A stretch of DNA of 62,389 bases, from the NCBI GenBank assembly GCA_903855945.1, contig CAIOAK010000091.1, forward strand, positions 1 to 62,389, given 5' to 3'. A model generated the notes under the pieces. That model searched no databases. It was not told where the DNA came from and saw nothing but the letters and a program-made list of their open reading frames with translations. The position numbers and the translations under genes are program-made. Positions 15,566 through 32,422 of the stretch are shown here, piece by piece; position 1 is the first letter of the stretch; the number at the start of each line of letters is the position of its first letter. Origin of the DNA: an uncultured Anaeromyxobacter sp. (GTDB lineage: Bacteria; Myxococcota; Myxococcia; Myxococcales; Anaeromyxobacteraceae).

Positions 15566-16810
15566 CTAGAAGCAGGTCGTGTTCGGGATCCCCTGCTTCC
15601 AGTAGCGGACGCCGCCGTGGCAGCCGGTGGTCACACCCAGGACTCCGGTGGACGTGCCGGTCCAGCCGTTCGGCCCCGCCGCGTTGGGCTTCCACGCGGG
15701 CAGGTTGGCCGTGTTCACGTTCCGCACGCCGTTCACGTGGTACGGGACGGCCTGGGGAAGCACCGCCGCGATGCTGTAGCCGGCCGGGTGGCACTTCGAG
15801 CAGGCCAGGTTCACCTGCCCGGGCGCCGCGTGGAGGACATGGGGCAGATCGGACGGCGGTGAGCCGTGGCAGCTGCCGCACCTGGCCTGCGTGCCGTCCA
15901 CCTTGTTCCAGATCGGCGTCGTGTAGGTGCCGCCGCCGTTCAGCGTCTGGCCGTGGCAGTAGTTCGCGCAGGTGAGCGTCCCGGTGTCGAAGGCGGGCAC
16001 GGCCGACTCCGCCGTGGCGATGGGGCCCCAGGAGAAGGTGACCGGGCTGTCCGGGACCGGACCGACGTGGGCCAGGTCGGTGGGGACCACGTGGCACTCG
16101 TTGCAGGCGATGGGGCTCGAGAGGGCGGTGGCTCCGGGCATCAGGTGGGCCTGGTGGGCGCCGACTCCCGGGGCGGTCGTGGCCGTGTTCCCGTACCGGT
16201 CGGCCGGAGGCGCCGCCTTCAGCGCGGCCGAGGAGCCGGCGGGGATCACGCGGGTCCGGTCGCCGTGGCACGCCGCGCAGCTCGTCCCGATGTCGGTGGG
16301 CTGCAGGTTGACCACACCGTTCACGTGGACGGCCCGGTTCACGGTGCTGTTCGTGTAGCCCGGGTGGCACATGGCGCACTGCACGCCGGTCGCCACCGCG
16401 GGGTGCCACGGGGTCGCCGCGACGCCGCCGGGGGTGGCGTGGCAGCCCTGGCAACCGGTGAGGCTGGTGGGCGGGTTCCAGACCGGGGCCGGGGTGGCGC
16501 CGCGGAAGACGACCGCGGTCGCTCCGCCCGCGTGGCAGTAGACGTTGGAGCAGGTGAGGTTCGAGATGCTGAGGGAGGGGTTCGCGCCGTTGGCCCGGGC
16601 GAGGCTGCCCGTGTAGGCGGGGAAGACCACGTCCCAGTTGGGAGCGTGGCACTCGCCGCAGGAGAGGGGCTGGGAGATGGGGCCCGCGAGGTGGATCGGG
16701 TGAGCACCGGTGATGGGCTGGCCGTTGTCGTCACCTTCCGATGCCGGGCGGCCGTTGCAGCCGGCGAGGACGAGGAGTACCGCGAGGAAGGGGACGACGA
16801 GCCGATGCAT
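15566..16810 (-). CDS. CxxCH/C4xCH multiheme c-type cytochrome lipoprotein
   Basis: This 414-residue lipoprotein has the signal peptide MHRLVVPFLAVLLVLAGC (cysteine 18). It contains seven CxxCH heme motifs (CGECH, CQGCH, CAMCH, CAACH, CNECH, CGSCH, CSKCH) plus two longer variants, CSNVYCH and CANYCH. Paired CxxxxCH/CxxCH motifs are typical of the Geobacter-type GSU_C4xC__C2xCH cytochromes. It is predicted to carry up to nine hemes on the periplasmic or outer face of the membrane. ATG 16810 is chosen because it heads the lipoprotein signal and follows GGAGG. It is divergent from fadI, with a palindrome in the shared 114-base region. Confidence 0.85.
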   Translation of the reverse strand: MHRLVVPFLAVLLVLAGCNGRPASEGDDNGQPITGAHPIHLAGPISQPLSCGECHAPNWDVVFPAYTGSLARANGANPSLSISNLTCSNVYCHAGGATAVVFRGATPAPVWNPPTSLTGCQGCHATPGGVAATPWHPAVATGVQCAMCHPGYTNSTVNRAVHVNGVVNLQPTDIGTSCAACHGDRTRVIPAGSSAALKAAPPADRYGNTATTAPGVGAHQAHLMPGATALSSPIACNECHVVPTDLAHVGPVPDSPVTFSWGPIATAESAVPAFDTGTLTCANYCHGQTLNGGGTYTTPIWNKVDGTQARCGSCHGSPPSDLPHVLHAAPGQVNLACSKCHPAGYSIAAVLPQAVPYHVNGVRNVNTANLPAWKPNAAGPNGWTGTSTGVLGVTTGCHGGVRYWKQGIPNTTCF

Positions 16811-18273: not shown

Positions 18274-20445
18274 ATGACCAGCAACCCTTGGAAGAACTAC
18301 CGGGTCGAGATCGCGGACGGCGTGGCCACCGTGTGGGTGGACGTGCCCGGGGAGCCGGTGAACACGCTCTCCCGCGAGACCGGAGCCGAGTTCGGCGAGG
18401 TGCTCGAGGCGCTCGACAAGGACCCCGCGGTCCGGGCGGTCGTGCTCGCGAGCGGGAAGAAGGACGGATTCGTCGCCGGCGCGAGCATCGACATGCTGCG
18501 CGAGGTGAAGAGCGCCGAGGAGGCCGCCCAGCTCTCCCGCGACGCCCAGGCCGGCTTCGACCGGCTGGAGCGCCACCCGAAGCCGGTGGTGGCCGCGGTC
18601 CACGGAGCCTGCCTCGGCGGCGGCCTCGAATGGATCATGGCCTGCCACTACCGCGTGGTCTCGAACGACCGGAAGACCCAGCTCGGCCTCCCCGAGGTGC
18701 AGCTCGGCCTCATCCCCGGCGCGGGCGGCACGCAGCGCATGCCGCGCCTGGTCGGGATCGCCACCGCCCTCGACCTCATCCTGGCCGGCAAGACGGTGAA
18801 GCCGAAGAAGGCGCTCGCCATCGGGCTGGTGGACGAGTCGGTGCCGCCGGCGATGCTGCTCGAGGTGGCGCGGGCACGGGCGCTCGCGCTGGCCGACGGC
18901 AAGCGGCTGCGCCCCGAGCCGGCCGGCATGGTGGACCAGCTGAAGAAGAACCCCCAGGCGGCCCTGCAGAAGCTGGCGCTCGAGGAGAACTTCGTGGGGC
19001 GCGGGATCCTCTTCTCCCAGGCCAGGAAGCAGCTGCTCGCGAAGACGAAGGGGCACTACCCCGCGCCGGTGGCTGCCCTCGAGGCCATCCAGGCCGGCTT
19101 CGAGAAGGGGATGGAGAAGGGGCTCGAGGCGGAGGCCCGACTCTTCGGCGAGCTGGCCGTGTCGCCGGTGGCGAAGGAGCTCATGGGCATCTTCTTCGCG
19201 ACCACGGCGCTCAAGAAGGACAACGGGACGCCCGATCCCTCGGTGAAGGGGCGCAAGGTGGAGTCGGTGGGCATCCTGGGCGGCGGGCTCATGGGCTCGG
19301 GCATCGCCTACGTCACCGTGAACGCCGGCGTCCCCGCGCGCATCCGCGAGCGGGACGACGCCGCGGTGGGGCGCGCGCTCTCGTCGGTGGCCGGGATCTT
19401 CGACGGGCGCGTGAAGAAGCGCTCCATGGACCGGCTGGAGAAGCTCTCCCGCATGCGGCTCCTCACCGCCGGCACCGGGTGGGAGGGCATGGAGCGGGTG
19501 GACGTGCTCGTGGAGGCGGTCTTCGAGGATCTGAAGCTGAAGCAGGAGATGCTGCGGACCTTCGAGGCCATGAACCCGCACGGCATCTTCGCCACCAACA
19601 CCTCGTCCATCCCGGTGGGCGAGATCGCGGCCGCCTCGGGCCACCCCGAGACCGTGCTCGGGATGCACTACTTCTCGCCGGTGAACAAGATGCCGCTGCT
19701 CGAGGTCATCGTGACCCCGCGCACCTCCCACGAGGTGACCGCCACCGCGGTGGCCCTCGGCAAGAAGCAGGGCAAGACCGTCATCGTGGTCGGCGACGGC
19801 CCCGGCTTCTACACGAGCCGCGTGCTCGCCCCGTACATGAACGAGGCGGTGATGCTGCTCCTCGAGGGGGCCTCGGTGGAGGACATCGACGCGGCGCTCA
19901 CCGGCTTCGGGTTCCCGGTCGGGCCGATGACGCTCCTCGACGAGGTGGGCATCGACGTCGGCGCCAAGGTGGCCAAGGTGATGCACGGCGCCTTCGGCGA
20001 GCGCATGGCCGTGCCCGAGGTGATGGGCAAGGTGATCGAGTCGGGGCGGCTCGGCCGGAAGAACGGCAAGGGCTTCTACACCTACGGCGACCCGAAGAAG
20101 AAGGTCGTGGACGTCACCGTCTACGACGCGCTCCCGGGCGGCCGCACGCGCAAGAAGATCGACCGCCAGGAGATCGTCGAGCGCTGTGTGTTGCAGATGG
20201 TGAACGAGGCCGCACTCACCCTGGGTGAAGGGATCCTCCGCAGCGCCCGGGACGGGGACGTCGGCGCCGTCTTCGGCCTCGGCTTCCCGCCCTTCCGCGG
20301 CGGTCCGTTCCGCTGGGTGGACGCGGAGGGGAGTGCCGCGATCCTCGACCGGATGCGGCGGATGGAGGCGCGCTTCGGGCTGCGCTTCCGGCCGGCGCCG
20401 ATGCTGGTCGAGCGGGGCGCCGCGGATCGTCCGTTTCACGAGTAA
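18274..20445 (+). CDS. fadJ: Multifunctional enoyl-CoA hydratase / 3-hydroxyacyl-CoA dehydrogenase
   Basis: This is a 723-residue beta-oxidation enzyme with the usual FadB/FadJ layout. The hydratase domain (1-~190) has its two catalytic glutamates in CLGGGLEWIMACHY and GLPEVQLGLIPGAGG. A linker follows, then an NAD-binding domain starting at GILGGGLMGSGIAYV (about 330). The dehydrogenase histidine lies in GMHYFSPVNKMPLLEV. It converts trans-enoyl-CoA to 3-ketoacyl-CoA, which FadI then cleaves; the two genes are two bases apart. The reducing equivalents produced could feed the respiratory proteins encoded nearby, which is inference from position. Confidence 0.9.
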   Translation: MTSNPWKNYRVEIADGVATVWVDVPGEPVNTLSRETGAEFGEVLEALDKDPAVRAVVLASGKKDGFVAGASIDMLREVKSAEEAAQLSRDAQAGFDRLERHPKPVVAAVHGACLGGGLEWIMACHYRVVSNDRKTQLGLPEVQLGLIPGAGGTQRMPRLVGIATALDLILAGKTVKPKKALAIGLVDESVPPAMLLEVARARALALADGKRLRPEPAGMVDQLKKNPQAALQKLALEENFVGRGILFSQARKQLLAKTKGHYPAPVAALEAIQAGFEKGMEKGLEAEARLFGELAVSPVAKELMGIFFATTALKKDNGTPDPSVKGRKVESVGILGGGLMGSGIAYVTVNAGVPARIRERDDAAVGRALSSVAGIFDGRVKKRSMDRLEKLSRMRLLTAGTGWEGMERVDVLVEAVFEDLKLKQEMLRTFEAMNPHGIFATNTSSIPVGEIAAASGHPETVLGMHYFSPVNKMPLLEVIVTPRTSHEVTATAVALGKKQGKTVIVVGDGPGFYTSRVLAPYMNEAVMLLLEGASVEDIDAALTGFGFPVGPMTLLDEVGIDVGAKVAKVMHGAFGERMAVPEVMGKVIESGRLGRKNGKGFYTYGDPKKKVVDVTVYDALPGGRTRKKIDRQEIVERCVLQMVNEAALTLGEGILRSARDGDVGAVFGLGFPPFRGGPFRWVDAEGSAAILDRMRRMEARFGLRFRPAPMLVERGAADRPFHE

Positions 20446-20817: not shown

Positions 20818-23703
20818 ATGCGAACCTGGAAGGTATCGACCATCGCCGTTCTCGCCACCGCCAGCCTCGTGCTCGCGGCCTGCGCGGGGAGCACCGGCCC
20901 GCAGGGCCCCGCCGGCCCCACGGGCTCCACCGGAACCACCGGAACCACCGGTCCCACAGGTACCCCCGGCGCGAGCGTCGGAATCATCTCCGGCAAGCTC
21001 ACCGCCACCGGCGCCACCGGCGGCGTCCCCGCCATCAGCGTGACCACCATCCCCGACGAGGGCGTGACCACCATCACCGCCGCCGACGGCTCCTACACCC
21101 TCGCCAACGTCCCGGTCGGCATCTACACGGTCTCCTTCGGGGGCGCCACCATCGCCACGACGACCGTCACCGGCGTGAACGTGGTCGCCGCCAAGACGAC
21201 GACGGTGAACGCGACGGCGACCTACTCGCCCATCGTGCTGACGCTCACCCCGAGCGTCGCGCTTCCCACCGGCTTCGCCAAGGCGACGAAGTACACGGTG
21301 AGTGCCACGGGCGCCACGGCGGCCGTGACCTACACCTGGGCGCGCACCTGCCAGGCCGCTCTCCCGACGGCGAAGTGGCCGGCCCTCACCGCCGCCGCCG
21401 ACGGGACCTCCGTCAGCCTGACCACGCCGGCGCTCCTCGACTACACCTGGACGGTCCTCGCCGGGAACACCGGGATGACCCTCGGCGCCATCGACCCGGT
21501 GTCCAGCACCCACTACACCTCGATGCTCATCCCGATGGATGCCAGCGGCGCCACCATCGCGGCCGTCCGCCCCGGCCTCATCGGCATCGGCCCGAGCATC
21601 ATGGCCCGCGGCTTCAACTGCACCATCACCGTCACCGCGACCGACGGCGCCTACAAGCAGACGGCCACCGCCTCGCTCTACCCGGTGCCCGCGCAGCCCG
21701 GCAGCATCGGCGCCATCCAGCCGCAGAACACCATGATGATGGCGGTCGGCAACGCCAACGGCCCCTGGACGCTCTCCTACAGCGCCACCGACAAGTCCTA
21801 CACGACGAGCAAGACCGCCCTCATCGACTTCCCGAGCCAGTGGATCACCACCTTCACCCCGGCCGACCAGGGCTTCTACGCCCTCAAGCTGAACGGCGCG
21901 ATCGTGGCCGAGTTCCAGGTGGGCAAGTACCAGGGCGCCATCAACAACAGCTGCGCCCCCTGCCACAACAGCATTCCCGCCCTGAAGGCCGCCGTGGACG
22001 CCAAGTGGACGGCGTGGAACAAGTCGGCGCACGGCAACTTCTACTTCAAGGCCTATGGCGTCGAGGGCGCCCCCATCCTCTGCCCCGACAGCTACGACGG
22101 CATCACCCCGGCCCTCGGCCTCTGCATCCCGAAGGCGCTCGACCAGACCATCCCCGGCAACATGACGCTCTTCGCCGCCGGCGTGAACGGCGTCGAGGGT
22201 AGCCACTACAGCACGACCTGCGTGGTCTGCCACACCACCGGCTACAAGAACCCGGCTGCCCTGCCCAACATCGCCGACTGGGGCTTCAGCGACACCGCCA
22301 CCAAGCTCGCCTGGGCCTTCCCCAGCAACGCGACCATCGACTACACCCGCTACAACGCGAAGGTCACCGGCACGGGCACCACCGTCGGCTCCGGCTACGA
22401 GACGGGCGATCTCAAGAAGCTCGCCGGCATCCAGTGCGAGAGCTGCCACGGCGGCATCTCCATGCACGTGAACAACGACTCGGTGCTCACGAAGCCGGTG
22501 GCCGTGTGGGACGCCCGCACCTGCGGCGTCTGCCACGACAGCCCGTCGAACCACGACCGGTACTGGCTCTGGTCCAACTCCGGCCACTCCAACTACGAGC
22601 TGGCCATGAACGAGGGGCCCGCCGGCGTCTCCTGCCAGCGCTGCCACGTGGCCCAGGGCTTCGCCGACTACGTGGACAACGGCCTCGCCCCGATCGCGGG
22701 TTCGAACAACCACTCCAGGAACGGCGCCTACCAGGCGGCCACGCTCCTCACCACCAAGGCCACCGCGATGCCGCAGACCTGCCAGGCCTGCCACGACCCG
22801 CACACCACCGGCCTGCGCGTCGATGAGTCCTGGATCCTGACGCTCCCGGCCGGCTTCGAGGTGCAGGGCACGGGTGCCGGCTCCACCTGCTTCGCCTGCC
22901 ACAACACCCGCAACGGTCTGCACGTGGACAACACGCCGTTCTGCTACGAGACTGCCACCGCTCCGGTCGTGAAGGGCGCGGGGCCCATCGCAACGCCTCC
23001 GTTCTGCATGTCGGGAACCTCGGCGGCCAGCGCGGCCATCGGCGGCCCGCACGCTCCCGTGCAGGGTGACATGATGGCGGGCACGAACGCCTTCTTCGTC
23101 TCCACCGGCATGCCGTCGCGCCACATGGCGGTCAAGGACACCTGCGTCGGCTGCCACGTGAAGCTCCACCCCGACTCGATCACGCCGGCCAACACGAACC
23201 ACACCTTCCGGGCCGACGGGACGATCTGCAAGAGCTGCCACGGCGTAGAGGTCAACCTCGAGGCCCTCGAGGGCGAGTACTCGCTGCTGGCCGGCTACGC
23301 GCTGACGAGCTTCAGCAAGGTGGCGAAGCGGGCGCTGCCCGATCCGTTCTACGTGAAGAGCGGCACCTCGTACTACGCGGTCTCCGCCAGCAACGTGGCC
23401 AGCGTCGTCCCGGCCGGCCGCTCGGGCTGGATGATGACCTTCACCACGCCCGTGACCATCGGCAGCGGCACGGTCTCCTCGTTCACGGGGAACGCGCTCT
23501 CCTTCTTCACGTCGGGCATCGCGCCCTTCACGCAGGTCTACGCCACCAAGGGCATCGTCGCGAAGTCCAACTGGAACCTGTACGCAACGAGCGGCGCGGT
23601 CGCCGGCAGCGCGGCGAACGTGATCCACAACCCGTCGTTCGCCTTCCAGGTCATCACCGCGACGAAGACCGCGCTCGACGGTGCCACGTCGGGCACGTAC
23701 TAG
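20818..23703 (+). CDS. Nonaheme c-type cytochrome lipoprotein with collagen-like stalk
   Basis: This 961-residue lipoprotein has its signal ending LVLAAC with cysteine 22. Ten Gly-X-Y triplets (residues 24-53) follow, then a carboxypeptidase-regulatory-like beta domain (about 55-130). Nine CxxCH heme motifs lie between residues 379 and 808: CAPCH, CVVCH, CESCH, CGVCH, CQRCH, CQACH, CFACH, CVGCH, CKSCH. It is predicted to be exposed at the outer membrane and to carry electrons to external acceptors. ATG 20818 is chosen because it heads the signal peptide and follows GAGGAG; the long open frame upstream has no such signal. The N-terminus closely resembles that of the decaheme protein downstream. 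Confidence 0.85.
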   Translation: MRTWKVSTIAVLATASLVLAACAGSTGPQGPAGPTGSTGTTGTTGPTGTPGASVGIISGKLTATGATGGVPAISVTTIPDEGVTTITAADGSYTLANVPVGIYTVSFGGATIATTTVTGVNVVAAKTTTVNATATYSPIVLTLTPSVALPTGFAKATKYTVSATGATAAVTYTWARTCQAALPTAKWPALTAAADGTSVSLTTPALLDYTWTVLAGNTGMTLGAIDPVSSTHYTSMLIPMDASGATIAAVRPGLIGIGPSIMARGFNCTITVTATDGAYKQTATASLYPVPAQPGSIGAIQPQNTMMMAVGNANGPWTLSYSATDKSYTTSKTALIDFPSQWITTFTPADQGFYALKLNGAIVAEFQVGKYQGAINNSCAPCHNSIPALKAAVDAKWTAWNKSAHGNFYFKAYGVEGAPILCPDSYDGITPALGLCIPKALDQTIPGNMTLFAAGVNGVEGSHYSTTCVVCHTTGYKNPAALPNIADWGFSDTATKLAWAFPSNATIDYTRYNAKVTGTGTTVGSGYETGDLKKLAGIQCESCHGGISMHVNNDSVLTKPVAVWDARTCGVCHDSPSNHDRYWLWSNSGHSNYELAMNEGPAGVSCQRCHVAQGFADYVDNGLAPIAGSNNHSRNGAYQAATLLTTKATAMPQTCQACHDPHTTGLRVDESWILTLPAGFEVQGTGAGSTCFACHNTRNGLHVDNTPFCYETATAPVVKGAGPIATPPFCMSGTSAASAAIGGPHAPVQGDMMAGTNAFFVSTGMPSRHMAVKDTCVGCHVKLHPDSITPANTNHTFRADGTICKSCHGVEVNLEALEGEYSLLAGYALTSFSKVAKRALPDPFYVKSGTSYYAVSASNVASVVPAGRSGWMMTFTTPVTIGSGTVSSFTGNALSFFTSGIAPFTQVYATKGIVAKSNWNLYATSGAVAGSAANVIHNPSFAFQVITATKTALDGATSGTY
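20887..20976 (+). repeat. Collagen-like Gly-X-Y tract (10 triplets)
   Basis: This codes for ten consecutive Gly-X-Y triplets, rich in Gly-Pro-Thr and Gly-Thr-Thr, immediately after the lipidated cysteine of the nonaheme protein. It could form a trimeric stalk. Confidence 0.75.
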
Positions 23704-23705
23704 CA

Positions 23706-23720
23706 GTCACCTAGAGTGAA
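23706..23720. repeat. Dispersed palindrome, 10 of 12 positions
   Basis: GTCACC TAG AGTGAA directly follows the nonaheme stop codon and abuts the first terminator-like hairpin. It is the only intergenic copy among the eight best matches. Confidence 0.4.
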
Positions 23721-23750
23721 AGCCTGCCGGCGCCAGCGCGCCGGCAGGCT
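23721..23750 (+). terminator. Terminator-like hairpin after nonaheme gene
   Basis: A perfect 13-base stem (AGCCTGCCGGCGC with its complement) encloses the loop CAGC, 18 bases after the stop codon. There is no T-run behind it, so it may act as a transcript-stabilising hairpin or a Rho-assisted terminator. Confidence 0.55.
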
Positions 23751-23846
23751 CGTGGTTGAAGGCGCTGGGCCCCCGACCCACCCGGGGGGGCCGCCTCTCG
23801 AGCGCGCTTCCAGGGTCGGATTCCTCCTGGCCTGGGCCAGGGGGCC

Positions 23847-23876
23847 GCCCGTCGATGCCACCGTGCATCGACGGGC
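23847..23876. terminator. Second strong hairpin in intergenic region
   Basis: A perfect 12-base stem (GCCCGTCGATGC with its complement) encloses a six-base loop and is followed eight bases later by TTTT. It could end read-through transcription from the nonaheme gene, separating it from the decaheme gene. Confidence 0.45.
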
Positions 23877-24399
23877 ATTCGTGCTTTTGGGGCATTCATC
23901 GACGCGCAAGTCTTGCGGGCGACCGCGTGCCACGATCGCGGGACGCGGGCTCGAGTATTATCTACCAGTCAAGTCCACATTGACCACCTCGGCGAGGGCC
24001 CGAGGACCGGCTGGCCTCGGCCGCGCCCCGTCCCAATCCCGCGACACGACAGGCTTCTGGGAGGGAGTCCGCGCCTGATCGGCGAGCCGGACCGAACCGG
24101 CGACGACCGCGCGGTGAATCCTGCACCACCCCGACGGCAACCGAAACCTGCGAAAGCCTTGCGTCGAGTGACGGACAGTAAACGACGACTCATGATGTCG
24201 AGAATGGAAGGACGCGCGGGAAATGCGGGCGCTATGGCATTTCACGCACCCCAAAAGGGCGCGGAATACCGAAACACGAAGCTTCCCGTGGCCATTCACA
24301 CAGGGTAGGCTGCCGCCACGATTTCACTCCGCAGCGAAGCGCGCGAAGCACCTACAGAGTTCATCCTGCAGTCAAGTCTGTTCCAAGGAGGCAGTACAA

Positions 24400-27123
24400 A
24401 TGCGAACGTCGAAGCTCATGACTCTCTCCGTTCTGGTCGCGGCCGGCATCGGCCTGACGGCCTGTTCGGGATCCACCGGCCCGCAGGGTGCCAACGGTCC
24501 GACCGGCGCCACGGGCGCCACGGGCACCCCGGGCACCACGGGCCCCACCGGCGCCACCGGCGCCACCGGCCCCACCGGCCCTGCCGGACTCACCGTGCTC
24601 GATTGGGCCACGATGTCTGACGCGAGCCGCCTCGAGGCGGGCCTCGTGTTCGCGCTGGCTGGCAACCCCACGCTCGACGCCACCGGCCACGCGGTCGTGA
24701 AGTGGACGGTCACGCACCGCAGCGGTCTTCCGGTGAAGGGTCTCGGCGCCGTCGCCGCCACCGCCACCACGTCCGGCAGCAGCTTCCGCTTCGCGCAGCT
24801 GCAGCTCGTCCCGGCCGCCGCCGGCTCGAACTCCTACTGGTGGAGCCACATGGCCGCCACCACGACCTCGACGGCCAGCACCGAGACCGCCGCGGCCGGC
24901 AGCATCGTCGACGACGGCAAGGGCGGCTACACCTACACCACCGTCAAGGTGATCAGCCCCAGCACCTCGGGCAAGCCCTACGACGCGGCCGCCACCCAGC
25001 GGTTCGTCTGGATCGCGCAGTACTCGCAGCCGACGCTCGACCCGAACACCGTCCGCAACGTCTTCCCGCCCACCGACATCACCGTTGACTGGGTGCCCTC
25101 CACCGGCGCCGTCGTCACGGGCGCGAACGAGAAGGTGAACCTCGACTCCTGCCTCGACTGCCACGGCCAGTTCCAGGCCCTCACCGGCCAGAACACCACC
25201 AACGTGGAAGGCATCTTCCACGGTGGCGCCCGCTACACGGTCGCCGCCTGCCAGGCCTGCCACAACAAGCAGCAGGCCAACGGCAAGACCAACACGGCGA
25301 TCTCCAAGGCGGGCACCTGGTCCGGCACGATGAGCCTGATCAACGGCAACTCGATCATCAACATCCCCACCTTCGTCCACGGGATCCACCTGGGTGAGGC
25401 GATGTACGACACGGTCGGCAAGACGCCGCACCAGATCGCCCTCACCGGCGGCGCCTACGCCGGCATCACCACGCCGTACGAGATCACCTACCCGCAGATG
25501 GTGAACAACTGCGCCAAGTGCCACAACACCGTGGCCAAGGCCGACAACTGGAACACCGAGCCCACCCGGATGGCTTGCCAGGGCTGCCACAACAAGACGA
25601 GCTTCCTCACGACCGTCCCCACGGGCGAGGTCGCCCACTTCGGCGGCGCCTACTCCGACGACGCCACCTGCAAGCTCTGCCACACCCCGGACGTCGTGAA
25701 GGGCTACCACCTGCCCGTCATCGCTCCCGACCCGAACAACGCGTTCGTGGGTGGCTCGAACACCCGCACCAACGCCGCGTACGTCGCCGCCGCCGGCACC
25801 AAGCCTGCCGGCGCCGTTCAGGTCAGCGTCGTCATCAAGAGCGTGGACGTGACCGCTGACGCCAGCGGCATCAAGCGCCCGTCGATCACCTTCCAGTTCC
25901 AGAAGGAAGGCGTCCCGGTGGTCTTCAACACCTACAATGCAGCCACCCAGCTCCAGATGATGGCGGACTTCGTGGGCTCCACGGCGGTCTACTGGGCCTT
26001 CTCCGTCACCCAGGACGGCATCGTGAAGCCTGCCGACTGGAACGGCTCCGCCAACTGCTACATCCGTGATGCGTGGCGCGGCACGACGTCGGCCAGCTGC
26101 AAGTGGACGGTGGGCACCGGCACGAACGCCGGCTACTACACCATCACCAAGGTTGACGTGAACCTGAGCAACGCCACGCAGGTCACCGGCGGCGTCGGCT
26201 ACGTCTACTCGCTGTCGGTCGCCGGCCAGCAGCAGCCGATCACCCAGACCAACCTGGCGGCGTACCCCTACACGGCGCTCGCCACCGGCTCGCCGAACGG
26301 CACGGGTGGCCTCATCGTTCCGATCCCGAACGTCTGGAAGTCGGCCACGGGCTACACCGCCCGCCGGACGATCGTCGAGACGGCCCGCTGCAACGACTGC
26401 CACGGGTTCCTCGGCGTAGCGCCCAACTTCCACGTTGGTCAGCGCAACGACGCCCCGACCTGCACGTTCTGCCACAACACCACCGGCATCAACAGCGGCT
26501 GGTCGTACAACATCAAGGACGCCGTGCACTCCATCCACGGGGCTGGCATGCGCAACAGCAACTTCACCTGGGAGATCACCGCCGGCGCCAAGTACTGGGA
26601 AGTGACCTACCCGGGCAAGGCGTACAAGTGCGAGCAGTGCCACCTGCCCGGCATGTACGACTACTCGGCCTCCGTCTACGTCGGCAGCTCGACGACGCCG
26701 TCGGTCGTCCCGAGCATGCTCTGGAGCAGCGTGGCCAAGGGCAGCTACACGGGCATCCCGGGTAGCACGCTGTCGCCCTACATCGTGTCGGGCGCGTGGT
26801 ACGGCACCGGCTTCTCGTTCAGCGCCACCACCGGCACGTCCATCCAGGCCACCAGCGACACGCTGGTCGTCTCCCCCATCACGGCGGCCTGCTCGGCCTG
26901 CCACGACTCGAGGACGGCCATCGAGCACATGATCCGCGCCGGCGAGGGCTTCTTCTACGCGACGCGTGGGGAGAGCATCGCCAACGTCACCAAGGGTCCG
27001 GCCATCGAGCAGTGCCTCATCTGCCACGGCCCCGGCACCGACGCGAGCATCGAGAAGGTGCACGCAGCTCCGGGTCCGGTTCCGTTCCTCGGCAAGAACC
27101 CCTGGACGCGGCCGGTCCACTAG
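24400..27123 (+). CDS. OmcA/MtrC-family decaheme cytochrome lipoprotein with collagen-like stalk
   Basis: This is a 907-residue outer-surface cytochrome. The signal peptide ends GLTAC (cysteine 22) and is followed by about thirteen Gly-X-Y triplets (24-62). Ten CxxCH motifs span residues 251-876: CLDCH, CQACH, CAKCH, CQGCH, CKLCH, CNDCH, CTFCH, CEQCH, CSACH, CLICH. The two groups of five separated by a beta-rich segment match the OmcA/MtrC plan, in which such proteins reduce metals or other extracellular acceptors. ATG 24400 is chosen by the ideal AAGGAGG site seven bases upstream. No MtrA or MtrB-type porin-cytochrome partner is encoded in the window. Confidence 0.9.
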   Translation: MRTSKLMTLSVLVAAGIGLTACSGSTGPQGANGPTGATGATGTPGTTGPTGATGATGPTGPAGLTVLDWATMSDASRLEAGLVFALAGNPTLDATGHAVVKWTVTHRSGLPVKGLGAVAATATTSGSSFRFAQLQLVPAAAGSNSYWWSHMAATTTSTASTETAAAGSIVDDGKGGYTYTTVKVISPSTSGKPYDAAATQRFVWIAQYSQPTLDPNTVRNVFPPTDITVDWVPSTGAVVTGANEKVNLDSCLDCHGQFQALTGQNTTNVEGIFHGGARYTVAACQACHNKQQANGKTNTAISKAGTWSGTMSLINGNSIINIPTFVHGIHLGEAMYDTVGKTPHQIALTGGAYAGITTPYEITYPQMVNNCAKCHNTVAKADNWNTEPTRMACQGCHNKTSFLTTVPTGEVAHFGGAYSDDATCKLCHTPDVVKGYHLPVIAPDPNNAFVGGSNTRTNAAYVAAAGTKPAGAVQVSVVIKSVDVTADASGIKRPSITFQFQKEGVPVVFNTYNAATQLQMMADFVGSTAVYWAFSVTQDGIVKPADWNGSANCYIRDAWRGTTSASCKWTVGTGTNAGYYTITKVDVNLSNATQVTGGVGYVYSLSVAGQQQPITQTNLAAYPYTALATGSPNGTGGLIVPIPNVWKSATGYTARRTIVETARCNDCHGFLGVAPNFHVGQRNDAPTCTFCHNTTGINSGWSYNIKDAVHSIHGAGMRNSNFTWEITAGAKYWEVTYPGKAYKCEQCHLPGMYDYSASVYVGSSTTPSVVPSMLWSSVAKGSYTGIPGSTLSPYIVSGAWYGTGFSFSATTGTSIQATSDTLVVSPITAACSACHDSRTAIEHMIRAGEGFFYATRGESIANVTKGPAIEQCLICHGPGTDASIEKVHAAPGPVPFLGKNPWTRPVH
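24469..24585 (+). repeat. Collagen-like Gly-X-Y tract (about 13 triplets)
   Basis: This codes for uninterrupted Gly-X-Y triplets (Gly-Ala-Thr and Gly-Pro-Thr types) placed exactly as in the nonaheme protein, right after the lipidated cysteine. Confidence 0.75.
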
Positions 27124-27176: not shown

Positions 27177-27209
27177 GGGCGGGCCCTCCGGGGCCCGCCC
27201 GTTTCTTTT
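27177..27209 (+). terminator. Rho-independent terminator after decaheme gene
   Basis: A perfect ten-base stem GGGCGGGCCC / GGGCCCGCCC with loop TCCG is followed by GTTTCTTTT. It lies between the decaheme stop and the histidine kinase start, so the two-component genes are probably transcribed separately. Confidence 0.8.
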
Positions 27210-27225
27210 GGGCTACGATGGCGCC

Positions 27226-28128
27226 GTGAAGCTCCGGCGCGTCTACCCGCTCATCATCGGTCTCGTCGTGGTCCCGGCGGCCATGATGCTGACGGTGGGC
27301 ATCCTGATGCTCGTCTTCGGGCGTCAGCCGCAGGACTACGTCTTCGGCATCCTCATCCTGGCGCTGGTCGCCACCACCATCTTCGGAACCATCGGGACCC
27401 TCGTGGTCCTCTACCGCGAGGCCTACGTCTCACGGCTCCAGACCGACTTCGTGAACAAGGTCTCCCACGACCTGCGCACGCCGCTCACGAGCATCCGGAT
27501 GTTCGTGGAGACCCTCCAGCTCGGACGCATCGCCGACCCGGTCCAGGCGAAGGAGGCGCTCGACATCATCGCGGCGGAGAGCGAGCGGCTCTCCCAGCTC
27601 ATCACGCGGCTCCTCGACTGGGCGCGCATGGAGTCGGGCAAGCGGAGCTTCGACCTGCGCCCGCAGCCCATCGGCCCCATCGTGGACGACGCGCTCCGCG
27701 CCGTGGAGCCGCAGCGGGTCCAGACCGGCGCCCAGATGCTGCGCGACGTCCCCGACGACCTGCCGCTCGTGGATGCCGACCGGGACGCGCTCTGCGACGC
27801 GCTCGTGGACCTGCTCCAGAACGCCTTCAAGTACACCGGTCCCGAGAAGCGGATCACGGTCTCGGCGCGCCGGGTCGGCAACGCCGTGGAGGTGATCGTG
27901 GAGGACAACGGCCCGGGCATCCCCGGCGCCGACCAGGTCCGGATCTTCGAGAAGTTCTACCGGGGGAAGGATCCGCTCGAGCGCACCATCGAGGGGAGCG
28001 GCCTCGGCCTCTCCATGGTGAAGCACGTGGTCGAGGCCCACGGCGGCAAGGTGGGCGTGAAGAGCGAGCTCGGCAAGGGGGCGGCCTTCTCGGTCCTCCT
28101 CCCGCCGGCCGAGGAGACGAAGCCATGA
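27226..28128 (+). CDS. Sensor histidine kinase without a recognisable sensor domain
   Basis: This is a 300-residue membrane kinase. Two transmembrane segments (about 9-31 and 38-63) are joined by only about seven residues, so no extracytoplasmic sensor is present. The H-box VSHDLRTPLTS carries H81, the N-box is LLQNAFKYT, and the G-boxes are VEDNGPGIP and GSGLGLSMV. GTG 27226 is preferred over the in-frame TTG 27208, which lies inside the upstream terminator's T-run. It overlaps the response-regulator gene by ATGA. Input may come from the membrane itself or from a partner protein. Position suggests, but does not prove, a link to the cytochrome genes. Confidence 0.85.
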   Translation: MKLRRVYPLIIGLVVVPAAMMLTVGILMLVFGRQPQDYVFGILILALVATTIFGTIGTLVVLYREAYVSRLQTDFVNKVSHDLRTPLTSIRMFVETLQLGRIADPVQAKEALDIIAAESERLSQLITRLLDWARMESGKRSFDLRPQPIGPIVDDALRAVEPQRVQTGAQMLRDVPDDLPLVDADRDALCDALVDLLQNAFKYTGPEKRITVSARRVGNAVEVIVEDNGPGIPGADQVRIFEKFYRGKDPLERTIEGSGLGLSMVKHVVEAHGGKVGVKSELGKGAAFSVLLPPAEETKP

Positions 28129-28820
28129 GCGGCGAGCGGATCCTGGTGGTCGAGGACGACCCCAACATCCTGCGGGGGCTCGATCTCAACCTCGCCATGG
28201 AAGGCTACAGGGTGCGCACCGCCGCCGACGGCGAGGAGGGGCTGCGCATCGCCCGCACCGAGCGCCCCGACCTCCTCATCGTGGACGTGATGCTGCCCCG
28301 GCTGGGCGGCCTGGAGCTGGTCCGGGAGCTCCGGAAGGAGGACCCGGACATGCCCATCCTGATCCTGTCGGCCAAGGGGCAGGAGCAGGACAAGGTGGCC
28401 GGCCTCGCGCTCGGGGCCGACGACTACGTGGTGAAGCCCTTTGGACTTCGAGAATTGCTGGCCCGCATCGGCGCAGCGCTGCGCCGCCCCCGTGCCCAGG
28501 GGGCCACCGGGCCCGTGCGCCAGCTGAAGCGCTTCGGCGCGGTGGAGATCGACCTGGGCGAGCGGAAGGTGACGGTGGACGGGAAGCCCGCCCTTCTCAC
28601 TGCGCGTGAATTCGACCTGCTGGCCTTCTTCGTGGCCCACCCGGGGCGCGTCTACTCCCGCGAGCAGCTCACCCGCGCGGTCTGGGGTTCGCTCTACATC
28701 GGCACCGAGCGCACCGTGGACAACTTCGTGGCCCGGCTGCGCGCCCACATCGGCGACGACGCCGACCGGCCGCGATGGCTCGAGACGGTGCGCGGCGTGG
28801 GCTACCGGTTCAACGGGTAG
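28125..28820 (+). CDS. OmpR/PhoB-family response regulator
   Basis: This 231-residue regulator has a receiver domain with acidic pocket E10-D11-D12, phospho-acceptor D54 (LLIVDVMLP), and conserved lysine in DYVVKPFG. A C-terminal winged-helix DNA-binding domain (about 130-228) contains LTAREFDLLAFF and the RTVDNFVARLR recognition-helix region. It is translationally coupled to the kinase (ATGA). The last 11 bases overlap the convergent glycosyltransferase gene. The DNA-binding domain gene segment contains a 10-of-12 copy of the dispersed palindrome. Confidence 0.9.
   Translation: MSGERILVVEDDPNILRGLDLNLAMEGYRVRTAADGEEGLRIARTERPDLLIVDVMLPRLGGLELVRELRKEDPDMPILILSAKGQEQDKVAGLALGADDYVVKPFGLRELLARIGAALRRPRAQGATGPVRQLKRFGAVEIDLGERKVTVDGKPALLTAREFDLLAFFVAHPGRVYSREQLTRAVWGSLYIGTERTVDNFVARLRAHIGDDADRPRWLETVRGVGYRFNG
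28596..28610. repeat. Dispersed palindrome, 10 of 12 positions
   Basis: CTCACT GCG CGTGAA lies inside the response regulator gene where it encodes LTAREF, and is followed by TTC, as at 9979-9993. Confidence 0.4.
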
Positions 28821-29883
28821 CGTTCCCCGCCAGCCGCAGGTAGAGCGCCAGGTAGGCCTCGGCGCAGGCGTCCCAGGAGAAGGTCGCGGCCTGCCGCCGG
28901 AGCGCATCGGCCCGCCCGGGCTGACGCGCCTCCGCCAGGCCCTGCTCGACCACCCGCCGCATCGAACCCGGCTCGAAATCGTGGAAATAGGAGGCCACGT
29001 CCCCGCCGATCTCCGGCAGGCAGGTGCGGTCCGAGAGGAAGGACGGTTTTCCGAAGTGCATGGCCTCGAGCGGCGGGAGCCCGAACCCCTCCGTGAAGGA
29101 CGGGAAGAGGAACCCGGCGCAGTTCGCGAAGAGCCAGGCCTTCCGGGCGTCGTCCACGTCGGTGAGGATCCGCACGTTCCCGAGCCCCCGCTCGGCCACC
29201 GCACCCCGAACCGCCTCCACGTCGCCGCTCGGTGGGCCGGCGAGCACGAACTCCTGCTCCGGCCAGAGGGCCGCGAGCCCCAGGATCGCCCCGATGTTCT
29301 TCGTCGGGATCATCCGGCTGACGTGGAAGAGGTAGCCCCCGGGCTCGATGCCCGCCACCGGCTCCCGGGGGTCGTAGACCAGGCTGCGCGCCCCGAGGTG
29401 GATGGTGTCGATGGGCCCGGCAAAACCCGCGTGGTCCCGGACGTCGCCGGCGACGAACCGGGTGTCGGTCACCACCCGGTCGGTCTCGGCGAGGACGCGA
29501 CGCATCTTCCGGGCGTTCCCCTCCTCGCGCGGGTCCTTCTGGCCGTACAGGAAGTTGAGATCGTGGACCGTGGTGAGCCGGCACCGGGCCCCCGCCGGCG
29601 GGCGGTGGGAGAGGAGCTGGTGCGTCCGGTGCCAGACGTCGTAGCGGGTCCACCGAAGGTGAATCCGCTTCTGGATCGACCGGAGCGGCAGGCAGCGCAG
29701 CCGGTCCCCGAACAGCCCGAAGCGCCTCCGGGGAAGGTGGAAATGCAGGTGGACACCTTGCCGGGCGAGCTCCGGGGCGCGGGCGGCCAGGCGGGTCCCG
29801 AGCTGGACGGCGAACTCCCCCACCCCGTCGTGCAGCGTCGTGAGCCTCCCGAAGCTGACGCCGATATTCACTGGCCGTGACAA
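28810..29883 (-). CDS. Glycosyltransferase family 4 (paralog A)
   Basis: This 357-residue GT-B fold glycosyltransferase has an N-terminal NIGVSFGRL start of the acceptor domain and a C-terminal donor-binding EX7E motif in FTEGFGLPPLEAMHFGKP. It transfers a sugar from a nucleotide donor to a glycan, probably for surface polysaccharide. TTG 29883 is preferred because it gives MSRPVNIGVSF, which aligns with MAQRIVNIGVSF of the upstream paralog; GTG 29871 is the alternative. Only two bases separate it from that paralog. It overlaps the response regulator gene tail-to-tail. Confidence 0.8.
   Translation of the reverse strand: MSRPVNIGVSFGRLTTLHDGVGEFAVQLGTRLAARAPELARQGVHLHFHLPRRRFGLFGDRLRCLPLRSIQKRIHLRWTRYDVWHRTHQLLSHRPPAGARCRLTTVHDLNFLYGQKDPREEGNARKMRRVLAETDRVVTDTRFVAGDVRDHAGFAGPIDTIHLGARSLVYDPREPVAGIEPGGYLFHVSRMIPTKNIGAILGLAALWPEQEFVLAGPPSGDVEAVRGAVAERGLGNVRILTDVDDARKAWLFANCAGFLFPSFTEGFGLPPLEAMHFGKPSFLSDRTCLPEIGGDVASYFHDFEPGSMRRVVEQGLAEARQPGRADALRRQAATFSWDACAEAYLALYLRLAGNATR
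29867..29881. repeat. Dispersed palindrome, 10 of 12; 16-base identity with 43213
   Basis: TTCACT GGC CGTGAC lies at the 5' end of glycosyltransferase paralog A. The 16 bases GATATTCACTGGCCGT beginning at 29863 are repeated exactly at 43213-43228 inside an unrelated epimerase gene. Confidence 0.45.
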
Positions 29884-29885
29884 AG

Positions 29886-30962
29886 TCAGGCGGCGACCCC
29901 CGTGAGCCGCAGGTAGAGCGCCAGGTAGGCGTCGGTGCAGGCGTCCCAGGAGAAGCGCGCCGCCTGCCGACGGATCGCGTCGGCCCGCCCGGGCTGCCGG
30001 GCCGCCGCGAGCCCCTCCTCGACCACGCGGCGCATGGACGACGGCTCGAAGTCCCGGAAGTAGGAGGCCACGTCGCCGCCGATCTCCGGGAGGCAGGTCA
30101 GGGTGGAGAGGAAGGCCGGCTTCCCGAAGTGCATGGCCTCGAGCGGCGGGAGTCCGAACCCCTCGGTGAAGGACGGGAAGAGGAACCCGGCGCAGTTCGC
30201 GAAGAGCCAGGCCTTCTCCGGCTCGCTCACGCCCCGGAGGACGCGCACGTTCGGAAGCCCGCGCTTCTCCACCTCGGCGTGCACCGCGTCCACCGAGCCG
30301 CCCGCCGGGCCGGAGAGCACGAACCTCTGCTCCGGCCAGATGGCCGCGAGCCCGAGGACCGATCCGATGTTCTTCGACGGCGCCATCCGGCTGATGTGGA
30401 AGAGGTAGCTCCCGGGCTCGATCCCCTCCACCGGCTCCCGGGGATCGTCCACCAGGCTGCGCGCGCCGAGGTGGATGGTCTCGATGGGGCCACGGTACTT
30501 GGCGCGGTCCCGGACGTCGCCGACGACGAACCGGGTGTCGGTCACCACCTGGTCGGTCCCGGCCAGCTTCAGCCTTCCCTTGAAGGAGTGGACCATCCGG
30601 CTCACCCCGCGCTTCGTGTGCTCGTAGTTGAGGTCGTGGACGGTGACGAGGCTGCACCGGGTCCCGAAGGGCGGACGGTGGGCGATGTCCTGGTTCATCC
30701 GGTGCCAGAGGTCGAAGCGGGTGCGGGAGAGGTGGACCATCCGCTCCACGTCCCGCATCTCGACGTAGCGAACCGTGTCCCCGAAGAGGCCGAAGCGCTC
30801 CTTGCGGGTGTGGAAGTGGAAGCGGATGCCGTGCCGCTCGGCGAGCTCCGGCGCGCGGGCGGCGAGGCGCTTGCCGAGCTGCAGGCTGAACTCCCCCAGG
30901 CCGTCGTGCAGGCGGCGGAGCGGCCCGAAGCTCACCCCGATGTTCACGATCCGCTGGGCCAT
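29886..30962 (-). CDS. Glycosyltransferase family 4 (paralog B)
   Basis: This is a 358-residue GT4 enzyme closely related to its neighbour across the whole length, including LTVHDLNYE, the SRMAPSKNIGS loop and the EGFGLPPLE donor-site motif. It is a tandem duplicate that lies first in the pair. The start is ATG 30962. selA ends eight bases upstream, so selA and the two glycosyltransferases run in one direction and may share a transcript. Substrates are not evident. The pair may add consecutive sugars, an inference from duplication. Confidence 0.82.
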   Translation of the reverse strand: MAQRIVNIGVSFGPLRRLHDGLGEFSLQLGKRLAARAPELAERHGIRFHFHTRKERFGLFGDTVRYVEMRDVERMVHLSRTRFDLWHRMNQDIAHRPPFGTRCSLVTVHDLNYEHTKRGVSRMVHSFKGRLKLAGTDQVVTDTRFVVGDVRDRAKYRGPIETIHLGARSLVDDPREPVEGIEPGSYLFHISRMAPSKNIGSVLGLAAIWPEQRFVLSGPAGGSVDAVHAEVEKRGLPNVRVLRGVSEPEKAWLFANCAGFLFPSFTEGFGLPPLEAMHFGKPAFLSTLTCLPEIGGDVASYFRDFEPSSMRRVVEEGLAAARQPGRADAIRRQAARFSWDACTDAYLALYLRLTGVAA

Positions 30963-30970
30963 CCGGCCTT

Positions 30971-32422
30971 CTAGGACGAACCGTGTCTCCCGGGCAAGCT
31001 CGACCGCACCGCGGCGAGCACCGCCTCGTCCTCGCCGGGCAGCACGGTGCGCGGGTCGAGGAGCACGCGTCCCCCCTCGATGCGCCCCACCACCGGCGGG
31101 TCGGAGGAGCGGAGCCGCGCCGCGATCGCATCGGCGTCGCCGGGCGGGAGCGCCAGCGCGAAGGAGGGGAGGGTGACACCGGGCAGCGTCCCGCCCCCCA
31201 CCGCCGAGCGGACCTCCACCACCTCGACCCCCGGTACGGCGAGCGCCTCCCGCCATCCCTCGGCCCGCGCCCGGACCTCCTCGGGGCTCCATGCGATGGC
31301 CCGCCACACCGGGACCTCCCGGAGCGCCTCCCCCTTCTCGTGGTGCGCGAGGGTGGCGATGAGGCCGGCGAGCGTGACCTTGTCCACGCGCAGCGCGCGG
31401 AGGAGCGGGTGGCGACGGCAGAGGTCGATGGCCTCGCGCCGCCCGGCCAGCACCCCGCACTGCGGGCCGCCGAGCAGCTTGTCGCCGGAGAAGCAGACCA
31501 CGTCGGCCCCGGCGGCGACCCGCTCCGCCACGGTGGGCTCCTCCCCCAGGCCGAAGGGGGCCGTGGGGAAGAGGGCGCCCGAGCCCACGTCGTCCACCAC
31601 CCACACCCCGGCCCGACGCCCGAGGTCGCACAGCTCCGCGAGCGTGGCGTCGTGGACGAACCCCTCCTGGCGGAAGTTGGAGCGGTGGACGGAGAGGAGG
31701 ATGCGGCTCCGGGGGGAGAGGGCCCCCTCGAAGTCGGACAGGTAGGTGCGGTTGGTCGTGCCCACCTCGACCAGGTCGGCGCCCGACCGTCGCAGCACGT
31801 CCGGAACCCGGAAACCACCACCAATTTCAACGAGTTGTCCGCGGGATACCAGCACCTCGGGCCGGCCGCTGGCGCCCGCCGTTGCGACCGCACCGGCGGC
31901 CCCCTCCCGACGCGCCGGGAGCCGCTCCGAGAGGGCGGAGAGGGCGAGCAGCACCGCCGAGGCGCAGTTGTTCACGACCACCGCCGCCTCCGCTCCGGTG
32001 AGGCGGCAGAGGGATGCCGAGGCGTGGCCGTATCGGTCGCCCCGGTCGCCGGAGGGCAGGTCGAACTCGAGGTTGGAGTAGCCGGCCGCCTCCTGCATGG
32101 CAGCCACGGCCGCCCGGGAGAGGGGAGCCCGCCCCAGGTTGGTGTGGATCACCACGCCGGTTGCGTTCACCACCCGCCGAAGCGTCCCCCGGACCCCCTG
32201 GGCCACGCGATCGAGGAATCGTGCCTCCACCTCCTCCGGGGGGGGGCACGGCGTTCCGGCGAGCACGGCCGTCCGAAGTTCGTCGAGGGAGGAGCGCACC
32301 GCCTCCATGATCGGCGCATGCCCCAGCCTGGCCGTCCAGCCGGCCCGTTCGGCAGCCGCCAGCAGGCGATCGGCGCGGGGGATCTTCCGGGCCTCCTGGG
32401 AGGCGTCTTCAGGGGTGGTCAC
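30971..32422 (-). CDS. selA: L-seryl-tRNA(Sec) selenium transferase
   Basis: This is a PLP enzyme of 483 residues that converts Ser-tRNA(Sec) to Sec-tRNA(Sec) using selenophosphate. Family segments visible are NATGVVIHTNLGRAPLS, GQLVEIGGGFRVPDV, and the PLP lysine K315 in FSGDKLLGGPQCG. GTG 32422 is taken as start (VTTPEDASQ). selB is encoded 5 kb away on the same strand, with nuoLMN on the other strand between them. No selC or selD is in the window. The codons for GQLVEIGGGF (around 31815-31840) are strikingly AT-ending compared with the rest of the gene. Confidence 0.93.
   Translation of the reverse strand: MTTPEDASQEARKIPRADRLLAAAERAGWTARLGHAPIMEAVRSSLDELRTAVLAGTPCPPPEEVEARFLDRVAQGVRGTLRRVVNATGVVIHTNLGRAPLSRAAVAAMQEAAGYSNLEFDLPSGDRGDRYGHASASLCRLTGAEAAVVVNNCASAVLLALSALSERLPARREGAAGAVATAGASGRPEVLVSRGQLVEIGGGFRVPDVLRRSGADLVEVGTTNRTYLSDFEGALSPRSRILLSVHRSNFRQEGFVHDATLAELCDLGRRAGVWVVDDVGSGALFPTAPFGLGEEPTVAERVAAGADVVCFSGDKLLGGPQCGVLAGRREAIDLCRRHPLLRALRVDKVTLAGLIATLAHHEKGEALREVPVWRAIAWSPEEVRARAEGWREALAVPGVEVVEVRSAVGGGTLPGVTLPSFALALPPGDADAIAARLRSSDPPVVGRIEGGRVLLDPRTVLPGEDEAVLAAVRSSLPGRHGSS

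Follow-up and report, generated by a model that had tools for sequence, protein, structure and literature searches.

Two multiheme lipoproteins encoded in a 62,389-nucleotide stretch of DNA from an uncultured Anaeromyxobacter sp. (hereafter the window) carry an unbroken Gly-X-Y tract close behind the lipid-accepting cysteine, and this tract is most likely a simple spacer, not a three-stranded stalk. We consider it probable that it is a low-complexity spacer under a single-chain heme body, and that whole heme bodies are exchanged at the tract, at a fixed chromosomal site. The Gly-X-Y spacer would raise the heme body off its lipid anchor. The tract would have no fold of its own, directly follows a strongly conserved leader, and appears loosely constrained in length and composition, so that it could grow or shrink, or give way to a poly-Gly or Pro-rich linker. 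Body exchange would have its junction here, at a site with a fadJ-like gene on one side and a two-component system on the other. As part of the same explanation both proteins are probably multiheme cytochromes that sit on a lipid anchor and belong to the extracellular electron transfer type, presumably exposed on the cell surface.

The nonaheme lipoprotein (20818-23703, + strand, ATG at 20818) has 961 amino acids and nine CXXCH motifs, and the decaheme lipoprotein (24400-27123, + strand, ATG at 24400) has 907 amino acids and ten. Both open with MRT and place Cys22 in a lipobox, LAAC in the nonaheme vs. LTAC in the decaheme. A sequence-only reading of this DNA had described uninterrupted Gly-X-Y runs of 10 and about 13 triplets behind Cys22, and these were confirmed: residues 24-53 of the nonaheme form 10 triplets and residues 24-65 of the decaheme form 14 (13 without the final GLT). 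With a Gly content of 10-11% in each protein, the odds of nine more in-phase glycines are about 1e-9 per start, and the tracts are therefore far beyond chance. The leader DNA of the two genes is homologous (72% over 167 nt). The decaheme scored 323.2 bits against TIGR03507 (OmcA/MtrC family, curated cut-off 209.3), has the ten CXXCH motifs and the lipobox that define such proteins, and matched MtrF and UndA in profile comparison; its sequence places it in the OmcA/MtrC family. As to the two beta-barrel and two pentaheme domains expected in this family, PF22113 covered two stretches of the decaheme, and a model with a mean pLDDT of only 46 put beta regions at residues 83-232 and 475-601. The nonaheme was not among the TIGR03507 matches and hit PF22113 only, over part of its body; Pfam recognised a CarboxypepD_reg-like domain after its tract, followed by the nine-heme body. 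The nonaheme has relatives within its own bacterial family and its order. The nearest named genome is that of an uncultured Anaeromyxobacter (L194). Searches for relatives yielded none among viral contigs and one weak match among plasmids. The TIGR03509 profile (MtrB-type porin) had no match in the genome, and the control genomes were likewise without a match. Feature coordinates are given in Table 1.

Table 1. Features of the nonaheme and decaheme genes and of the genes bordering them, in window positions.
Feature	Positions	Strand	Basis
fadJ-like gene at the left edge of the proposed slot (enoyl-CoA hydratase / 3-hydroxyacyl-CoA dehydrogenase)	18274..20445	+	Pfam, NCBIfam; synteny in 22 family genomes
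Nonaheme lipoprotein signal peptide, ending at lipid-accepting Cys22	20818..20883	+	Leader DNA 75% identical to the G002 decaheme leader over 160 nt
Nonaheme Gly-X-Y tract, 10 triplets	20887..20976	+	Sequence
Nonaheme body: CarboxypepD_reg-like beta domain, more beta domains, nine CXXCH	20977..23703	+	Pfam, structure model
Stretch after the nonaheme stop codon, with terminator-like hairpins and homology to its G002 decaheme counterpart	23709..23887	+	87% nt identity over 46 nt, 90% over 41 nt
Conserved DNA in front of the decaheme gene (promoter, ribosome-binding site)	24302..24399	+	76-80% nt identity to G001 and G002
Decaheme lipoprotein signal peptide, ending at Cys22	24400..24465	+	92-95% identity among four congeners over the first 60 nt
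Decaheme Gly-X-Y tract, 14 triplets; joins constant leader to variable body	24469..24594	+	Pfam Collagen 27.8 vs. 27.2 bits
Decaheme body, OmcA/MtrC family	24595..27123	+	TIGR03507 323 bits; PF22113
Terminator-like hairpin 3' of the decaheme	27177..27200	+	Resembles the G001 hairpin only
Right edge of the proposed slot: histidine kinase plus PhoB/OmpR-type response regulator	27208..28820	+	Pfam, NCBIfam, synteny

Several further genes were recorded as well. A further multiheme lipoprotein of the window (15566-16810, - strand) has seven CXXCH and also CxxxxCH motifs, with Cys18 and without a Gly-X-Y tract. In G003 the syntenic counterpart (L152) has 607 amino acids and 11 CXXCH, and heme number thus changes at this locus too. 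At about 28822-31000 (- strand) lie two similar tandem glycosyltransferase-like genes, 2.2 kb that are missing from the syntenic stretch of G003. The nearest congener holds an open frame of 1097 amino acids with 42 CXXCH (L144, G001:C37:15000-27000).

The fadJ-like gene and the histidine-kinase/response-regulator pair also flank this site in other members of the bacterial family. The site was mapped in 22 family genomes, 20 of which hold one or two nona- or decaheme lipoproteins there, in either orientation, and all 26 of these cytochromes carry a Gly-X-Y tract (4-20 triplets). The exceptions are G016, where the site is empty (88 bases), and G013, where it holds 2 kb without a cytochrome. The bodies at the site fall into 12 clusters at 42% identity. 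We read the site as a fixed surface-cytochrome slot: promoter, signal peptide and tether would stay constant, and the bodies behind them would be exchanged.

This reading draws on four congeners (G000-G003). Their flank DNA is 85-89% identical and their leader DNA 86-95% identical over 87 bases, with upstream DNA also conserved. The decaheme bodies that follow belong to three subfamilies sharing 23-26% amino acid identity, but those of G000 and G001 are 61% identical. Past the tract, DNA identity drops to background in all congener comparisons save G000 vs. G001, the break falling at the tract itself. The nearest kin of each congener body (50-58% identity) was found in another genus or family: in genera g3 and g4 for the G002 body, in g4 for the G003 body, and in a different family for the body type of G000 and G001. 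Grouping the four bodies as one clade cost 790 log-likelihood units and was rejected (AU test, p = 2e-30). Across the 26 site genes, which are not independent, leader DNA in pairs with bodies below 35% identity was 10.5 points closer within genera than between them (none of 5000 label shuffles reached this value), and the corresponding difference for the bodies was 0.9 points (142 of 2000 shuffles). Leader similarity appears to track genus where body similarity does not. Single-contig (complete) relatives differ in their bodies at this site too, and their leaders are less constant (G011 vs. G020, leader DNA 79%, body 25%). The earlier suggestion that the shared N-termini constitute a module is strengthened by these comparisons, in which leader and tract form a unit in front of differing bodies. 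The simplest reading would be that bodies are replaced while the leader and, to some extent, the 3' stretch stay in place. The nonaheme of the window, whose leader and post-stop stretch both resemble those of the G002 decaheme gene (Table 1), may have arisen in this way; the terminator-like hairpin behind the decaheme is common to the window and G001. A silent stock of other bodies behind one leader within a single genome was considered and rejected, as the leader search returned one strong copy per congener, plus the related nonaheme leader in the window.

The tract itself is not special to these cytochromes. A home-made heuristic recognised a leader in 69 multiheme lipoproteins of relatives; at least 6 triplets followed the cysteine in 50 of them and 4-5 in 6, so that at least 4 triplets were present behind the lipobox in 56; two misassigned leaders (L221 and L005) were left out of the linker comparison. 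In named genomes of several phyla, at least 4 triplets were present in 45 of 59 multiheme lipoproteins (Geothrix/Holophagaceae 12/12, Beta- or Gammaproteobacteria 22/29, Myxococcota or delta 10/13, Nitrospirae 1/1, and Desulfuromonadia 0/4). The solved MtrC, MtrF, OmcA, and UndA have a similar GXX run of 4-5 triplets, e.g. GSDGDDGSPGEPGKP in MtrF. Heme-free lipoproteins of the genome that the window comes from (contigs C10 and C36) also start with a lipobox closely followed by Gly-X-Y. Judged from these sequences, the tract is a common tether of the superfamily in several phyla. Two non-cytochrome lipoproteins with long Gly-X-Y runs after the lipobox (L046, G000:C10, and L123, G000:C36) are more plausible than the cytochromes as true collagen-like proteins.

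Tract length across homologues ranged from 4 to 20 triplets. Bodies 52% identical (L082 and L159) follow tracts of 20 vs. 4 triplets, and at 62-71% body identity Gly-X-Y, poly-Gly or Pro-rich linkers stand in the same place (L223 or L236 vs. L270; L254 vs. L233). A decaheme subclass of the relatives (L065, L154, L155, L072, and L076) has poly-Gly near the lipobox in place of Gly-X-Y. The G003 tract consists mostly of GTN triplets in near-perfect 9-base repeats, a pattern as slippage would make. In L139 (G003:C36) the tract is largely built of repeated GGGACCAAC units, and strain-to-strain length variation is likely.

Such repeats invite the alternative that the tract is mainly a DNA recombination substrate, recruiting homologous exchange, with the encoded peptide incidental. 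The break from conserved to unrelated DNA does sit at the tract, the 9-base repeats of G003 are nearly perfect, and no gene of the exchanging site lacks a tract. The conserved leader and flanks could, however, serve intergenomic exchange instead, and the same tract is found at loci without sign of exchange and in non-cytochrome lipoproteins. We therefore regard a role mainly in recombination as unlikely.

The sequence-only reading had proposed trimeric display of the hemes and a thirty-heme trimer of decahemes. In such a model the tract would form a collagen triple helix and bring three cytochromes together in stalked assemblies of 27 or 30 hemes. Both tracts are unbroken, as expected of a triple helix, and the decaheme lies slightly above the Pfam Collagen cut-off (the nonaheme was not listed). 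Thr-rich Gly-X-Y is typical in bacterial collagen-like proteins (PMC8968730), a bacterial (GAS)n tract forms a triple helix, and Bucl8, a trimeric outer-membrane protein with variable-length Gly-X-Y, can be triple helical (PMC7682875). A tract that forms a triple helix should also be kept in close homologues, but here the tract is swapped for other linkers or cut to 4 triplets; we doubt the helix because a load-bearing one should hold its tract position more tightly. A tract variable and absent in close relatives was what the sequence-only reading itself had named as evidence against its proposal. Profile searches of both proteins against NCBIfam and Pfam recognised no trimerisation domain, and AlphaFold monomers without heme showed no structure in the tract, although the models were poor (mean pLDDT 46-47 for both proteins). 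Characterised MtrC-type cytochromes of Shewanella are known as single chains, and this includes the solved homologues with short tracts. Since bacterial Gly-X-Y can be triple helical alongside a trimeric domain, as in Bucl8, a trimer is disfavoured only, and the longer tracts may yet form a triple helix; we judge a trimer quite unlikely here, and trimeric display and the thirty-heme assembly were both left unsupported.

The spacer reading with body exchange must also be weighed against error in the data. The congeners are multi-contig drafts (190-510 contigs), repeats can cause misassembly, and at a repetitive tract one leader might have been fused to a body from elsewhere. In three independent genomes the body is a complete open frame with the expected right border behind it on one contig, which, together with the different bodies of single-contig relatives, makes such an artefact very improbable. 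That no exchange occurred, and that the bodies diverged very fast in place behind a strongly constrained leader, can hardly be credited: leader conservation does reach into upstream DNA, as constraint on the gene start would have it, but the bodies find their nearest kin outside the congeners, the single clade was rejected, and post-stop stretches change along with the body.

Like the decaheme of the window, Shewanella MtrC, MtrF, OmcA, and UndA have a lipobox, a Gly-rich GXX run directly after the cysteine, ten CXXCH, and MtrC/MtrF II/IV domains, the last being predicted in the decaheme. They differ in tract length (4-5 triplets vs. 10-20 here). Unlike in those systems no mtrAB adjoins the decaheme gene, and the nonaheme falls below the TIGR03507 model, as a family of its own. 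Next to a conserved mtrAB, mtrC has been described as undergoing modular replacement and duplication (PMC8805035). There, as here, the outermost cytochrome varies and its genomic partner genes are constant, whereas the present site is framed by a fadJ-like gene and by a two-component system, and promoter, leader and tether appear to be kept while only the body changes. Scl, BclA, Lcl, and Bucl8 share a Thr-rich Gly-X-Y run of variable length on a surface protein, but their tracts are long or accompanied by a trimeric partner domain, and those described here are short and replaceable, with no trimeric domain known. PgcA of Geobacter sulfurreducens (PMC5732950) is likewise a lipidated extracellular multiheme cytochrome with low-complexity repeats; its PTX repeats lie between heme domains, and the Gly-X-Y tract lies at the lipid anchor. 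The open-access literature yielded no account of collagen-like tracts in multiheme cytochromes or of the fadJ-HK site, which does not prove that none exists.

The claim of a thirty-heme trimer is thus set aside, and in its place stands a site that can be checked, at which the outermost electron-transfer protein varies among related bacteria while the start of its gene is unchanged. Spacer chemistry at the lipid anchor appears to be interchangeable within one cytochrome family in several phyla. The congeners would provide natural matched strains, in which the part of the heme body in acceptor choice could be separated from expression or anchoring. More tentatively, and as a possibility that we would not yet call probable, fadJ-HK may be a locus dedicated to the exchange of surface cytochromes in Anaeromyxobacter-type bacteria, with a constant promoter, signal peptide, tether and two-component regulator, into which nona- and decaheme bodies are recombined. 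If this were true, the range of electron acceptors available to these bacteria would shift in a single step.
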